Shown here: positions 3,031 through 8,379 of the stretch, piece by piece
Numbering within the stretch: position 1 is the first letter of the stretch
Layout of the letters: each line of letters begins with the position of its first letter
NCBI RefSeq assembly: GCF_004336745.1
Contig: NZ_SJXD01000022.1
Coordinates: 372,001-436,000 of the forward strand
Direction: 5' to 3'
DNA from: Roseococcus sp. SYP-B2431
GTDB taxonomy: Bacteria; Pseudomonadota; Alphaproteobacteria; Acetobacterales; Acetobacteraceae
DNA: 64,000 bases
Program-made: the position numbers and the translations under genes
Notes under the pieces: generated by a model
What the model saw: the letters and a program-made list of their open reading frames with translations, nothing else
Told to the model about the DNA's origin: nothing
The model's database searches: none

Positions 3031-4011
3031 ATGGTCCTGCGCATCCTGGCGGCGATGGCCGCGCTGCTTCTCGCCCTTCCCGCCCAGGTCCATGCTCAGG
3101 CCCAGCCCTGGCCTGGCAACCGGCAGGTCCGCCTTCTCGTCACCTATCCGCCCGGCGGCACCACCGACTTCGTCGCGCGCCTCTTCGCCCAGCGCCTCGG
3201 CGAGCAGACCGGCGCCAGCTTCGTCGTGGAAAACCGCTCCGGCGGCGGCGGCGTGGTCGGCTGGACCGCCGCGGTGCGCTCGCCGCCCGACGGCACGACG
3301 CTGCTGCTGACCGACAATTCCCTGGCGACGGCACCGCCGCTCTATCCCAACCTCGGCTTCGACATCCGCGCGGACTTCACGCCGATCTCGCTGCTGGTGG
3401 ACTATCCGACGGTCTTCGTCGTCCCGGCGAGCTCCCCCGCGCGCAGCCTGCGCGACTTCGTCGAGCGGCAGCGCGCGCCGGCCGCCGAGCCGGCCTTCTA
3501 CGGCTCCATGGGCGCCGGCTCCTCGCCGCATCTCTACACCGAGCACCTGCAGGACTTGGCCGAGATCCGCATGACCCACGTGCCCTATCGCGGCATGGGC
3601 CCGGCCTTCGCGGATCTCCTGGCCGGCCGCATCGGGCTGCTGATCGCCGCGCCGCCGACCGTGCTCGGCGCGCTGCGCGACAACCGGGCGCGGGCCATCG
3701 CCATCGGCACCGCCGGCGGGCGCATCCCGGCCTTGCCGGACGTGCCGACGGCGCGCGAGCTCGGCATCGATTTCACCTATTCCTTCTGGTACGGCCTCGT
3801 CGGCCCGCGTGGGATGGATCCGGCGGTGGTCGCGCGCATCCAGGCGGAGATCGGGAAGGTGCTCGCCAATCCCGAGGTGCGGGCCCGCTTCGTCGAGCAG
3901 GGCGCGACGCCCGTGGCGGGCGATGCCGCCGCGCTGACGGCGGTGATGGAGAACGACCTCGCGCGCTGGAGCGAGGTGGTGCGCGCCAAGGGCATTACGC
4001 TCCAGCAGTAG
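3031..4011 (+). CDS. Bug/TctC family tripartite tricarboxylate receptor
   Basis: 326-residue periplasmic binding protein of the Bug family. It has a signal peptide (residues 1-23, MVLRILAAMAALLLALPA... ending at HAQA) and the conserved 'VTYPPGGTTDFVAR' strand-loop that contacts the carboxylate ligand. 'MTHVPYRGMGPA' and 'LPDVPTARELG' are further family blocks. A Shine-Dalgarno-like GGGAG lies just upstream of the ATG. No TctA/TctB membrane genes adjoin, which is normal for this expanded family of orphan receptors. The 3' end overlaps the convergent tetR-like gene by 17 nt. Confidence 0.9.
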   Translation: MVLRILAAMAALLLALPAQVHAQAQPWPGNRQVRLLVTYPPGGTTDFVARLFAQRLGEQTGASFVVENRSGGGGVVGWTAAVRSPPDGTTLLLTDNSLATAPPLYPNLGFDIRADFTPISLLVDYPTVFVVPASSPARSLRDFVERQRAPAAEPAFYGSMGAGSSPHLYTEHLQDLAEIRMTHVPYRGMGPAFADLLAGRIGLLIAAPPTVLGALRDNRARAIAIGTAGGRIPALPDVPTARELGIDFTYSFWYGLVGPRGMDPAVVARIQAEIGKVLANPEVRARFVEQGATPVAGDAAALTAVMENDLARWSEVVRAKGITLQQ

Positions 4012-4546
4012 GCACCGGGATCAGGCGGTCGATCAGCGCGTCCGGGTCGCCCGCCTCGTCCAGGCCGGCGGCGCCGTCGAGCAGCAGATGCGCGAGGCCG
4101 TGCACCAGGCCCCAGCGGCGCAGCGCCTCGTCCTTGTCGCCCGCGGCGCTCTCGAGGGCGGCGAAGGTTCGTCGCGAGGTCTCGTGCAGCTCCGGATGAT
4201 CGGCGGCCCGCGACAGCAGCGGCCCGAACATGAGGCGGAAGCGCCCCGGCCGTGCGAGGGCGAAGCGGATATAGGCCCGGCCCCGCGCCACCAGCTCATG
4301 AGCCGGATCGCGCGCCGCGGCCTCGTTCAGCGCCGCCCCGAATTCCCGGAAGCCCCGCACGGCCAGCGCCGCCAGCAGGGCGTCCTTGTCGGCGAAGTGG
4401 CGATAGGCGGCGGTCGGCGAGACGCCGGCCAGGCGCGCGGCCTCACGCAGGCTGATGTCGCCGCCGGCGTCGAGAAGGGTCTCGGCGGCGTCGATCAGGG
4501 CCGCGCGCAGGTCGCCGTGATGATAGGGCTTTTCAGATGTTGACAT
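3995..4546 (-). CDS. TetR/AcrR family regulator with WHG-type C-terminal domain
   Basis: 183-residue repressor-like protein. Residues 10-57 form the TetR DNA-binding domain ('YHHGDLRAALIDAAETLL', then 'ISLREAARLAGVSPTAAYRHF'). The C-terminal ligand domain has 'RWGLVHGLAHLLLDG', typical of the WHG-type subfamily. It is divergent from a small membrane-protein gene. A perfect palindrome (GTATGTT-N9-AACATAC, 4561-4583) sits in the shared upstream region, which fits repression of itself and of that neighbour. The inducer is unknown. Confidence 0.9.
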   Translation of the reverse strand: MSTSEKPYHHGDLRAALIDAAETLLDAGGDISLREAARLAGVSPTAAYRHFADKDALLAALAVRGFREFGAALNEAAARDPAHELVARGRAYIRFALARPGRFRLMFGPLLSRAADHPELHETSRRTFAALESAAGDKDEALRRWGLVHGLAHLLLDGAAGLDEAGDPDALIDRLIPVPTAGA

Positions 4547-4641: not shown

Positions 4642-4959
4642 ATGATGCTCATCCTGGCGATCTTCGCCCTTCCCAAGGGCCGGGGCGCGCATCGCAGCCT
4701 TGGCCGGTGGGCCGCGGCGGCCTTGCTGCTCAGCGCGCTTTCCTCCTTCGCGATCCAGTCGCGCGGGCATCTCTCGGCGCTGCACATCCTCTCGGCGATC
4801 ACGCTGGTGAACATCCCCTATGCGGTCTGGATGGCGCGGACCGGGCGCATCCCGGCGCACAGGCGGGCGATGCTCATCAATGCCGGCGGGCTCTTCACCG
4901 CCGGCCTCGCCGCCACCTTCGCGCCGGGGCGGTACCTCCACACGCTGCTGTTCGGTTAG
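4642..4959 (+). CDS. Small multi-pass membrane protein (DUF2306-like)
   Basis: About 105 residues with three to four hydrophobic segments and a basic 'LPKGRGAHRSLGR' loop like the start of DUF2306-type membrane proteins. The first ATG in frame (4642) would cut the first helix in half. Frame-conserved hydrophobic sequence (LQVLHLHLALSLIA) continues upstream to a CTG at 4600, with no ATG, GTG or TTG before the in-frame stop at 4576. The true start may therefore be CTG 4600, or an ATG (4593) in another frame may have been lost by an indel. It diverges from the TetR-type gene and is its likely target. Function unknown. Confidence 0.6.
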   Translation: MMLILAIFALPKGRGAHRSLGRWAAAALLLSALSSFAIQSRGHLSALHILSAITLVNIPYAVWMARTGRIPAHRRAMLINAGGLFTAGLAATFAPGRYLHTLLFG

Positions 4960-5798
4960 CGCGGCGTCCGTAGCGCCGCCACTTCCTCCCGCAGCGCCCG
5001 GACTTCCTGCACCAGCAGGTGGATCTCCCGCCGCTCCTCGTTCTTCGCGACCTCCTCGGCGACGATCTCGCCCCGGTCCCGCTCCTCGCGCAGCGTCTGG
5101 ATGCTGTCCACGATCACGCCGATGAACAGGTTCAGCACCACGAACGTCGAGAGGATGATGAAGGGCAGGAAGAAGACCAGCGCGTAAGGCACGGCCTCCA
5201 TGGCCGGCTTCACGATATTGGCCCAGTCGTCCAGCGTCATCAGCTGGAAGAGCGTGAAGAGGCTGCCGCCCAGCGAGCCGAACTGTTCGGGCATCGCGGC
5301 GCCGAAGAGCTTCGTCGCCATCACGGCGAAGACGTAGAAGATCAGGGCCATCAGCAGCACGATGCTGCCCATGCCTGGCAGCGCGCCCAGCATCGCCTCC
5401 ACCACGTGGCGCAGCGAGGGGACCACGGAAATCAGCCGCAGCACCCGAAGCACGCGCAGCGCCCGCAGGACCGAGAGCGGCCCGCTGCCGGGCAGCCAGG
5501 CGATGCCGACCACGACGAGATCGAAGAGGCCCCAGGGGTCGCGGAAGAAGCGCCCGCGGAAGGCGTAGATGCGCAGGCCGAGCTCGGCGGTGAAGAGCCA
5601 GAGCAGGATGTCGTCCAGCAGCTCCAGCTCCGGGCCGATGCGGGCCATCGTGGCCTCGCTGGTCTCGAGGCCCAGCGAGACCGCGTTCAGCAGGATGAGT
5701 CCGACCACGGCATATTGGAAGGCCGGCGCCAGCACGAGTCGCGCCACGCGCGAGCGTAGATCGTCGCCGGCGTGCTCCGCCGTCAGCGCTTCCTGCAT
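4956..5798 (-). CDS. Bacterial voltage-gated cation channel (NaChBac/BacNav type)
   Basis: 280-residue single-domain, six-helix channel that should form tetramers in the inner membrane. Voltage sensor: S1 about 24-43, S2 62-80, S3 88-104 (with D93), S4 108-125 with arginines 112, 115, 118 and 121 at three-residue spacing. Pore: S5 133-165, pore helix and filter 'FTLFQLMTLDDWAN' (181-194), S6 204-232, then a charged C-terminal coiled coil to residue 280. The filter reads TLDDWAN, where sodium-selective NaChBac/NavAb have TLESW; the two adjacent aspartates resemble engineered calcium-selective CavAb. The start is the ATG at 5798; longer in-frame versions add only low-complexity sequence. It stands alone, 4 nt over the end of the convergent membrane-protein gene. 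Confidence 0.9.
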   Translation of the reverse strand: MQEALTAEHAGDDLRSRVARLVLAPAFQYAVVGLILLNAVSLGLETSEATMARIGPELELLDDILLWLFTAELGLRIYAFRGRFFRDPWGLFDLVVVGIAWLPGSGPLSVLRALRVLRVLRLISVVPSLRHVVEAMLGALPGMGSIVLLMALIFYVFAVMATKLFGAAMPEQFGSLGGSLFTLFQLMTLDDWANIVKPAMEAVPYALVFFLPFIILSTFVVLNLFIGVIVDSIQTLREERDRGEIVAEEVAKNEERREIHLLVQEVRALREEVAALRTPR

Positions 5799-6036
5799 GT
5801 CCAAGGCTCCATGTTCCGGACAGGAATGGCCGTGCCGCGGAGCGGGATCAAGTCCCCGCCGGCGTGATGCGCCGGGGCCGCGCGCCCGGACGGCGGCGGC
5901 ACGCTGTTCGCCGGGGCGCCGCGAGGCTATTCCTGCGGGCCTGGCCAGGGCCTGGACGGCGCCCGCCTGAAACCTGGCTCCGGAGCAGCTGCATGGATCG
6001 CCATGGGACGGCCTCATTGTTTCGGCGCGGCTGGCG

Positions 6037-7152
6037 ATGACCATCGGCCTCGTCCATTTCAACCACACCACGACCGGCGGCCTGACCGGCTGGCCCGCCG
6101 TCCGCACGGCGAAGTGGACGCCGAACTACGGGGACATGCTCGTCGGCGCCTCGGTGGTGCGGCAGCTCAAGGTGCAGAAGGGCGAGCGGATCCATTTCGG
6201 CGGAGCGCCGCGGCAGCCGGTGGAACGGGCCATCATCCGCGGCTCGACCTATCTGCACGACGCCCTCGACTTCGAGAAGGCGAACCGGACCCTCGACAGC
6301 ATCCCAGCGCCGCTCGCGATCGTGGGCCTCGGCGCCCAGCACCCGACCCTCGACCCGGCCTTCCTGGACGGCCACCGGGGCGCCCGCGACTTCATTGCAC
6401 GGCTGAACGAGAAGTCGGCCAGCATCTCCGTGCGGGGCGCCTTCTCGGCAGCGGTCGTCGAACGGCTCGGCGGGCGGAACATCCGCATCACGGGCTGCCC
6501 CTCGCTCTTCTATTCGCTGACCTGCCCGGCCGTTCGCGTCCCGGAGATGCTCCGCCGGCCGGAGCGCACGGTCGGGGTGTCGATCCTCTCGGTGCTCGTG
6601 GCCAATATGTTCTGCCATGCCCCCAGGGAGGGGCTGGAGAAGCACCGGCTCGCCATCGAATGGGCGATCGGCAACGCGGTGAACGTGCCCATCTTCGAGC
6701 AGGGCGTTCTCGAGGAATACGACATCGCCGACCAGGAGCTGAGCTTCGAGGAACGGCTGGAAGCCGCCCGGCGGATGCTCGCGCGGATCGGCGCCACCGG
6801 CCGGCTCCTGCCGGAGGATCTGATGGCGCGGGTGGTCAGCGTCCGCAACGTCGAGGAATGGCTGGCGAGGGTCCGCGAGGTCGATGCGATGATCGGCTTC
6901 CGCTTCCACGGCAACATGATCGCCCTGCTGCAGGGCAAGCCCTGCTACTACTACACCTATGATTCCCGGCTGAAGGAATTCGCCGACGTCTACGGCCTGC
7001 CGCAGCAGGACGTGACGGAGCCCTGGGTCGATCCGGCCGCGGCCATGATCTCCCATGACTGGGACGGGACGAATGCCCGGATCAGGACGCTCTTCGCGGA
7101 GCTGAAGGCCTTCTATGCCGAGAACGGCTTCGATCACGCCCTGGAGGGGTGA
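6037..7152 (+). CDS. Polysaccharide pyruvyl transferase family protein
   Basis: 371-residue protein of the PF04230 family, which moves ketal pyruvate from phosphoenolpyruvate onto surface sugars. Family marks are the N-terminal 'NYGDMLVGASVV' segment, the central 'SVRGAFSAAVVERLG' block and the C-terminal 'GFRFHGNMIALLQGKP' motif. It stands by itself between the channel gene and rlmH, with 238 nt upstream in which I see no other gene and no clear promoter. No other exopolysaccharide gene adjoins, so its acceptor is unknown. Confidence 0.82.
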   Translation: MTIGLVHFNHTTTGGLTGWPAVRTAKWTPNYGDMLVGASVVRQLKVQKGERIHFGGAPRQPVERAIIRGSTYLHDALDFEKANRTLDSIPAPLAIVGLGAQHPTLDPAFLDGHRGARDFIARLNEKSASISVRGAFSAAVVERLGGRNIRITGCPSLFYSLTCPAVRVPEMLRRPERTVGVSILSVLVANMFCHAPREGLEKHRLAIEWAIGNAVNVPIFEQGVLEEYDIADQELSFEERLEAARRMLARIGATGRLLPEDLMARVVSVRNVEEWLARVREVDAMIGFRFHGNMIALLQGKPCYYYTYDSRLKEFADVYGLPQQDVTEPWVDPAAAMISHDWDGTNARIRTLFAELKAFYAENGFDHALEG

Positions 7153-7159
7153 GGCGCCG

Positions 7160-7621
7160 TCACGGGCGCCAGGCGCGGTGATAGGGGTGGTTGGTCCGGA
7201 TGCACTGCGCCCGGAACAGCTGCTCGGCCAGCAGCGCCCGGACCAGCAGGTGCGGCCAGGTCAGCGGGCCCAGCGAGAGCCGGTGCTCGGCGCGGCGGGT
7301 GACGGCCTCGTCCAGCCCCTCCGCGCCGCCGATGGCGAAGCAGATGGGCCGCGCGGCCTCCTCCCAGCGGGTGGTCAGGGCCGCAAGCGCCTCGCTGGAG
7401 GGCGCCGCGCCGCCCAGGTCCAGCGCCACCAGCAGCGCCTGGGCGGGCAGGGCGGCGAGGATGGAAGCGCCCTCGCGCCGGCGGATCTCGGGCGGGCTGC
7501 CCGCCGCGTCGGCCAGCTCCGCCAGTTCCAGCGGCGGCCGCAGCCGCGCGTTGTACTGGGCGAAGAGTGTGCCCTCGGCGCCGGACTTGAAGCGGCCGAC
7601 GGCGAGCAGCTTCGCCTTCAA
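7160..7621 (-). CDS. rlmH: 23S rRNA pseudouridine-1915 N3-methyltransferase RlmH
   Basis: 153-residue SPOUT-class methyltransferase acting on pseudouridine 1915 in helix 69 of 23S rRNA. The knotted SAM site is visible: '[15 protein letters not shown]', then '[20 protein letters not shown]' and the terminal 'NHPYHR'. The homologous N-terminus ([14 protein letters not shown]) begins at a TTG codon at 7621 that overlaps the rsfS stop (TTGA); an upstream in-frame start would give an 18-residue extension not expected in the family. Last gene of the proA-hydratase-nadD-rsfS-rlmH block. Confidence 0.92.
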
Positions 7622-8379
7622 ATCGGCGACTGTTCCCCGGGCCCCGACTCGCCCAGCGGGCTGTCCGGCCCCCACATCTTCTCCAGGTCGAACTTCAGGC
7701 GCGATTCCGGCTTGAAGAGGTGGATGATGAGATCGCCGGCGTCGATCAGCACCCAGTCCTCGCTGGACTGCACGGAGTCGCGGCGGAGCTTCAGCCCCTC
7801 CTCGGCCAGCGCCTGGTCGATATGCGATGCCATCGCCTGGATCTGCCGGTCGACCTGGCCGGTCGCGATGATCAGCCAGTCGGCGTAGCTGGCGCGCGAC
7901 CGGACATCGAGCACGACGATGTCCTCGGCCTTGTCGTCGTCCAGGCTCTTGCGGGCCGCCTCCACGAGGCGCGCCAGCCGGTCCGGATCGGTCTTGGCCG
8001 CGCGGCGCTTGGGCGCGGCCTTGGCCTTCGGCGCCGCGGCCGGCCTGGCGGCCGCCTTGGGGGCGGCGCGGACATTGGCCGTCGTGCGCGGGGCCGGCTT
8101 GGCCGGGGCGGCGGCCGGCTTGGCGATGGCGCGCGTCTTGGTCGTGGCCGGCTTCGCGGCGGCGCGGGCGCGGGATGGCTTGGCCTCCGGCTCGGCGGCG
8201 CGGGGCTTCGGCGCGGCGGAGCGAGCGCGGGCGGGCTTCGCCGCGGGCTCTGCGGCGGTTGTCCGCGACGGCTTCGCGGCGGCGGGCGTGGCGGCGCGCG
8301 TCTTCGGGGCGGGCTTCGCCACGGCTCCGGCGGGGGCCTTTCGCGCCGGCTTCTTCGTCTCGTCTGGGGTCCGCGCCAT
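7618..8379 (-). CDS. rsfS: Ribosome silencing factor RsfS with long Ala/Lys/Pro-rich N-terminal tail
   Basis: 253 residues. The C-terminal half (about 130-250) is a normal RsfS/Iojap domain with '[19 protein letters not shown]', '[15 protein letters not shown]' and 'KFDLEKMW'; it binds L14 (uL14) and blocks 30S-50S joining. Residues 1-129 are a low-complexity basic tail made almost only of A, K, P and R (for example [17 protein letters not shown]), similar in composition to histone H1-like bacterial proteins. RsfS is usually 105-140 residues, so the tail doubles it. The ATG at 8379 starts the tail with no break in frame. Co-transcribed with nadD (16 nt upstream) and overlapping rlmH. Confidence 0.93.

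Follow-up and report, generated by a model that had tools for sequence, protein, structure and literature searches.

A native TLDDWAN selectivity filter in a NavAb-type channel of Roseococcus marks a candidate natural bacterial calcium channel

The window analysed here, a stretch of 64,000 nucleotides from Roseococcus sp. SYP-B2431, carries on its minus strand a channel gene (P0001, 4956..5798) whose reading frame is intact and complete, with the ATG at 5798 and the stop codon ending at 4956. According to the reading frame, Pfam and AlphaFold/Foldseek, it encodes a single-domain six-transmembrane voltage-gated cation channel of 280 aa. A preliminary description of this DNA had reported the same reading frame and the filter TLDDWAN, and both coordinates and letters agree with the sequence and its translation. 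The annotated ATG is supported by a GGAG read from the sequence 8 nt 5' of it, the likely ribosome-binding site (5807..5810, minus strand), and by MQE, which opens (residues 1-3) all 14 of the aligned proteins with the same kind of short, double-aspartate (DD) pore. In the Pfam search the protein matches Ion_trans (6.4e-47) and, more weakly, PKD_channel, and it is the only protein of the genome to match Ion_trans at E 1e-3. An artefact or a pseudogene is ruled out by the intact reading frame together with the many intact relatives. Nearby lie a TetR-type regulator gene (3998..4546, minus strand; Pfam and synteny) and a gene for a SPOUT methyltransferase (7163..7627, minus strand; Pfam PF02590, 1e-37, and synteny), presumably rlmH, which marks the locus as one shared with relatives.

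The protein combines one Ion_trans domain, six transmembrane helices and a P1-filter-P2 pore (Pfam, AlphaFold, Foldseek) with the four regularly spaced S4 arginines of BacNavs. These gating charges, R112, R115, R118 and R121 (5436..5465, minus strand), do not vary in any of the 87 aligned relatives, bearing out the earlier statement that the S4 charges are intact. F69, E72 and D93, which we take to be the charge-transfer centre and the S4 counter-charges, are likewise invariant in all 87. An AlphaFold model computed with the alignment of 87 sequences reached a pLDDT of 92.4, and our structural statements rest on it; with 14 sequences the pLDDT was a poor 67.6. The model predicts a P1 pore helix (residues 176-187; 5238..5273, minus strand), a filter turn of four residues (188-191), a P2 helix (residues 192-202; 5193..5225, minus strand) whose stretch from W192 to the V-K/R-P motif is, by alignment, one residue shorter than in NavAb-type channels, and a helix comprising S6 and the C-terminal region (residues 206-277; 4968..5183, minus strand), the C-terminal part of which we assume to resemble the tetramer coiled coil of BacNavs. 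Foldseek matched the model best to NavAb and CavAb (5klb, titled CavAb, E 4.4e-16), and among the 50 matches listed the best single-domain PDB entries were NavAb/CavAb chains, 42-50% identical. A phmmer search against the PDB gave its top four scores to four-domain T-type Cavs, because phmmer sums several domains, followed by single-domain matches that include 5klb and 6juh. With the voltage-sensor part alone, the top scores went to N- and P/Q-type Cavs (several domains each), then to a T-type Cav and single-domain chains. Judged by its sequence and predicted fold, the channel is thus a NavAb-type single-domain BacNav with an intact voltage sensor.

The selectivity filter, T188 L189 D190 D191 W192 A193 N194 (5217..5237, minus strand), can be read from the sequence, the translation and the relatives. 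It has TLDDW in place of the TLESW of canonical Na+-selective BacNavs and, like CavAb-type filters, has Asp in both variable positions of T-L-x-x-W, 3 and 4 (D190 and D191); position 4 is D191 and not the Gly of CavMr-type filters. The native LDDW filter to which the preliminary description drew attention is therefore present in the translation, and it is kept in relatives. Just past the filter one residue is absent: TLDDWAN-IVKP stands against NavAb-type TLESWSMGIVRP, and it aligns to TLDDWSNGIVRP in chains 6juh, 6ke5 and 5klg, of which 6juh is titled CavAb (TLDDWSNG). The alignment with 6juh otherwise runs residue for residue save for the absent G, so that the proposed likeness to the engineered CavAb filter stands apart from that glycine. 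Because the residue is missing between W192 and IVKP, the register of N194 is unsure. The MAFFT gap falls before or after N194, varying with the sequence set, and N194 may stand for filter position 7 or 8, that is, NavAb 181 or 182. The asparagine assigned earlier to the outer position is accordingly there, but that assignment presumed an ungapped alignment. No gap is needed in the filter when the protein is aligned with domain II of Cav3 (TQEDWNVV).

Set beside known systems, the channel resembles CavAb (engineered from NavAb; 6juh, 5klb), with which it shares the fold and, with regard to the filter of 6juh (TLDDWSNG), the aspartates at positions 3 and 4, the Trp and the Asn. It differs in being native, in having Ala for Ser at position 6 and in the residue absent past the Asn, and its overall identity to the 5klb and 6juh chains is 44-45%. 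With NavAb and NavMs (TLESWSM) it has in common the six segments, the S4 charges, the P1 and P2 helices and the C-terminal helix, but it departs from them in filter and P2 length. CavMr of Meiothermus ruber (TLEGWVD) is also native and of the homotetrameric type, and has a measured preference for Ca2+ of the kind we propose here, but it has Gly at position 4 where our channel has Asp, and its authors set it apart from CavAb in both group and mechanism. Five Roseomonas rows with TLEGWVE resemble CavMr more than the window channel does. NavPp of Plesiocystis pacifica (TLEDWTD) is likewise acidic at both position 3 and position 4 but differs by its Glu at 3 and Asp at 7 and prefers Na+ with Ca2+ block. 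Domain II of eukaryotic Cavs (EDW) and, according to part of a review, CatSper1 also place an Asp directly after the high-field-strength acid, in channels that are four-domain or heteromeric.

The preliminary description had suggested aligning the filters of homologues from related genomes, which revealed a sizeable family sharing TLDDWAN; that description had overlooked the family, the deletion and the counter-example of NavPp. Within Roseococcus, 18 of 21 genomes carry the channel, 10 with TLDDWAN and 8 with TLESW(A/S)E, and this exact recurrence in 10 of the 18 channel-bearing genomes makes TLDDWAN more than chance. Across the Acetobacteraceae, matches at E 1e-3 occur in 61 of the 299 genomes, a count that includes weak matches to other channels. 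The family sample comprised 30 listed loci and 20 further places that were read, and a scan of named genomes added 79 loci from the best 80 of 187 relatives. At that stage, 176 proteins (127 distinct) had been gathered, three distant ones being dropped before trees were built. Among the 79 rows of the careful tree (76 of Acetobacteraceae type and 3 outgroup), the short DD pore occurs in 34 distinct Acetobacteraceae proteins, 20 reading TLDDWAN and 14 AMDDFGN, and the many relatives with DD filters rule out TLDDWAN as a lone oddity. In the AMDDFGN proteins (L026, L028-L030, L063-L065, L116, L118, L121, L129, L131, L135 and L136) the filter Thr and Trp, kept by at least 90% of the 87 aligned relatives, are replaced together by Ala and Phe. 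Paired loss of the two would fit a lost Thr-Trp contact. The 20 distinct proteins picked for reading TLDDWAN encode it with silently differing codons (D190, GAC 6 and GAT 14; N194, AAC 10 and AAT 10; L189, three codons; D191, GAC 20/20), which argues that these genes are not recent copies.

Wider samples of the class (taken without its 29 weakest matches) and of the phylum (the best 30 loci, ranked by pore match, of 127 genomes with a match) amounted to 119 loci and 124 rows, with the window counted twice. TLESWSMGIV occurs in 88 of the 124 rows, and one further DD filter was found among the rows read: TFDDWSNG (L242), from another alphaproteobacterial genus and one residue apart from the TLDDWSNG of 6juh CavAb. 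In that genus 14 of 17 genomes have the channel, and the 13 that were read show TFDDWSN (6) or TFDDWSG (7), all without the deletion. The short P2 spacing recurs in 17 other class and phylum rows, with EG (13), DG (3) or ES (1) at positions 3-4, and in ten actinobacterial loci. These ten channels (L164, L166-L174) have TG(E/D)xW filters that recall the TGEDW of eukaryotic Cav domain II. Channels of another genus of the same family as the window (L055-L059) read TLDAWSDG, with Asp at positions 3 and 7, and three distant relatives in that family (L060, L061 and L062; 33-35% identity) have a pore without TLxxW.

We then compared neighbours at the named loci, with flanks of at most 3 kb that are often cut by contig ends and with the tandem locus L125 outside the counts. 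The channel adjoins rlmH at 12 of 13 AMDDFGN, 4 of 17 TLDDWAN and 12 of 18 TLESW(A/S)E loci, as well as at 4/4 Elioraea TLESWST, 0/2 Elioraea TLESWSM, 2/2 TLEGWPS and 0/5 TLEGWVE loci. The TetR gene, a neighbour common to the Roseococcus DD and LESW loci, flanks the channel together with a 105-aa gene at 6 of 17 TLDDWAN and 4 of 18 TLESW(A/S)E loci. Two Roseococcus loci with TLESWSE (L111 and L113) show the succession TetR, hyp105, channel, rlmH, rsfS, nadD in the order and on the strands of the window, so that in Roseococcus at least, channels of both filter types are positional orthologues. In the window, a polysaccharide pyruvyl transferase gene (6037-7149) lies between channel and rlmH; it has no match in the flanks of the compared loci, L111 and L113 included, and therefore looks like an insertion. 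A mobile or viral origin of the channel was considered and rejected, as 16 viral-contig stretches matched a pattern and none of them encodes a relative. In one record titled as a Bryobacteraceae MAG (L130) the channel is Acetobacteraceae-like and the rlmH next to it shares 77% identity with that of the window; this contig is probably misbinned.

The fixed differences between DD and TLESW(A/S)E channels fall almost wholly in the filter and the P2 helix. Comparing 34 DD with 23 TLESW(A/S)E proteins, seven columns are fixed at 80% or more in each group and yet differ (172, 190, 191, 194, the deletion, 199 and 200), six of them within 190-200. The seventh, turret position 172 (5283..5285, minus strand), is Q in the window channel; of the 34 DD proteins, 30 have Q, two E, one R and one H, and the TLESW(A/S)E proteins have R in 23 of 23. 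We take the loss of this Arg to ease cation entry. The filter columns were excluded from all trees. The careful tree left the deep Acetobacteraceae branches mostly unsupported and, when free, required 4 changes for the short DD filter; a tree constrained to unite the 34 short-DD rows withstood the AU test (p 0.521), with a likelihood 0.94 higher. This is no proof of a clade, and it means that the short DD filter need not have arisen more than once within Acetobacteraceae. In the quick tree the DD proteins joined five TLEGWVED proteins (SH-aLRT 95), a grouping that the careful tree does not recover with support; the five share an I-V-K/T-P-A stretch past the filter with the TLDDWAN type. Their filters, found in Roseomonas channels (L033, L143, L144, L145 and L155), are very like the TLEGWVD of CavMr. 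In trees that contain neither CavMr nor NavPp, the window channel itself falls among Acetobacteraceae channels, TLESW types being part of that group. The TFDDW genus forms its own clade (SH-aLRT 100, quick LG tree), next to the TLDAWSDG channels. A single origin of all DD filters is accordingly not favoured, the fewest changes in the quick LG tree being 3, a kind of count that cannot tell gain from loss. Assuming that DD is not ancestral, we infer that DD filters arose at least twice.

In order to rationalise these observations, we propose that the channel is voltage-gated, Ca2+-permeable and probably Ca2+-preferring, a candidate natural bacterial calcium channel, and we give this reading a probability of roughly 60% on the strength of sequence and analogy. 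A homotetrameric NavAb-type channel would open on depolarisation, with D190 at the high-field-strength site and D191 just above, placing two carboxylates per subunit, eight per tetramer, on the ion path; the Met that contributes to Ca2+ exclusion in NavAb is missing. A NavAb-type ancestor would in this way have become Ca2+-permeable and probably Ca2+-preferring, and the cellular role of the channel would be that of a voltage-to-Ca2+ coupler. Ca2+ preference is favoured because the pore aligns with CavAb-type chains, the model matches 5klb and engineered LDDW filters can confer Ca2+ selectivity, because the DD/TLESW(A/S)E differences cluster in 190-200 with S4 and the counter-charges invariant, and because a separate genus also has DD (TFDDWSNG) without the deletion. 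The published engineered precedents are LDDWAD in NaChBac and LDDWSD in NavAb, both Ca2+-selective, and LDDWADG in NsvBa, with PCa/PNa of about 30; a review adds that Asp at position 4 alone (TLEDWSM) raises Ca2+ over Na+ about 100-fold in NavAb. The NavAb mutant M181A, nonselective but with Ca2+ selectivity of about 10-fold, also speaks for this reading. The effect of Asp at position 4 in NaChBac, NavAb and CavMr mutants, where the excerpts report altered selectivity, also argues against a channel that is still Na+-selective and in which DD is a neutral variant. That reading draws on the remaining protein being almost as in the TLESW orthologues, and seems very improbable given that the DD pair stands in separate tree clades; the open-licence literature searched, so far as its text was available, describes no Na+-selective channel that has exactly TLDDWAN.

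The aspartates alone do not decide for Ca2+, because NavPp with TLEDWTD prefers Na+. According to the excerpts, NavPp belongs to the AnclNav group, has one aspartate more than CavMr and is Na+-preferring and blocked by Ca2+, and NavSp LDDWSD is reported only with a higher Ca2+ affinity, preferring Na+ over K+. The window channel could by analogy be Na+-permeable, bind Ca2+ tightly in its filter and be blocked by it, given that Ca2+ might be bound too tightly in a filter so short and so rich in D. We consider this unlikely, though the foremost of the alternatives, since NavPp is an AnclNav, whereas the window channel is nearest to NavAb and CavAb, a background in which LDDW permits Ca2+ in the published excerpts. 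The filter letters act in their backbone context, which by analogy is here NavAb-like, the one where the Asp residues work. CavMr G4D, with Asp at position 4, has a lowered Ca2+ selectivity, and NavAb S178G, with the TLEGW of CavMr, is not Ca2+-selective. Against Ca2+ preference it also counts that the absent P2 residue matches none of the engineered Ca2+ filters met in the literature excerpts, and that short P2 spacing elsewhere goes mostly with EG/DG (16 of 17 other class and phylum rows), filters that are nearer to that of CavMr, in which an added Asp failed to favour Ca2+.

Alternatively, the absence of the P2 residue could widen or loosen the filter and thereby let through Na+, K+ and Ca2+ alike. 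Non-selective behaviour is described, in the passages available, for NsvBa TLDSWGS (Asp at position 3), NaChBac LEDWAS and NavAb M181A, the last having lost Na+ selectivity with about 10-fold Ca2+ selectivity, and for filters one residue short, where a review puts the gap at position 4; the AMDDFGN relatives without the filter Thr and Trp would fit as well. A non-selective pore appears a little less likely still than a Ca2+-blocked one, in view of the identical filter kept across species despite silent codon changes, the two carboxylates per subunit and the ordered P1-filter-P2 turn (pLDDT 96-98 in a monomer model, which is silent on pore width). For the preferred reading, a Ca2+-preferring channel, the genome offers little further guidance: it encodes a protein of the Na+/Ca2+ exchanger family, which says little of a link to Ca2+ handling because the family also occurs in 11 of the 14 control genomes.

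More tentatively, and at slightly less than even odds, the DD channels may add to the native prokaryotic voltage-gated Ca2+ channels a second kind with a mechanism of its own. On at least two occasions in Alphaproteobacteria, a BacNav of Na+ type would have been converted to a CavAb-type Ca2+ channel, in Acetobacteraceae through a few clustered changes in filter and P2 (gain of two Asp and an Asn, loss of one residue) at the rlmH-rsfS-nadD address, with a further branch doing so even without Thr and Trp (AMDDFGN). A 2026 paper still names CavMr as the sole prokaryotic Cav identified, and the authors who described CavMr themselves mention BLAST candidates with more acidic filters. The open-licence literature searched yielded no native LDDW channel, the LDDW filters in its accessible text being engineered, and no BacNav in Roseomonas. 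CavAb is artificial and serves as a model for Ca2+ selectivity and calcium-channel drug binding. If the proposal is true, the DD family offers a series of natural variants of the Na+/Ca2+ switch, which native channels with the CavAb pair and their positional TLESW orthologues, alike in nearly everything except the filter, would make testable on pairs that evolution has made. Such channels would also widen the case for bacterial voltage-gated Ca2+ entry, and the AMDDFGN branch raises the question of whether a filter can work without Thr and Trp.

Some carriers of TLESW (Roseococcus suduntuyensis, Neoroseomonas alkaliterrae and Crenalkalicoccus) bear names that presumably point to soda or alkaline habitats, and the record titles of several DD carriers mention a pond or lake, both observations resting on names. 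Tandem pairs of channel genes occur at L043/L125 (Siccirubricoccus deserti), at L193, L194 and L196, and at L243; the filters are unlike within L043/L125 (TMEGWIQD and TLESWAEA) and within L243 (TTEGWP and TMEGWP), and such tandem genes are possible sources of heteromeric bacterial channels.
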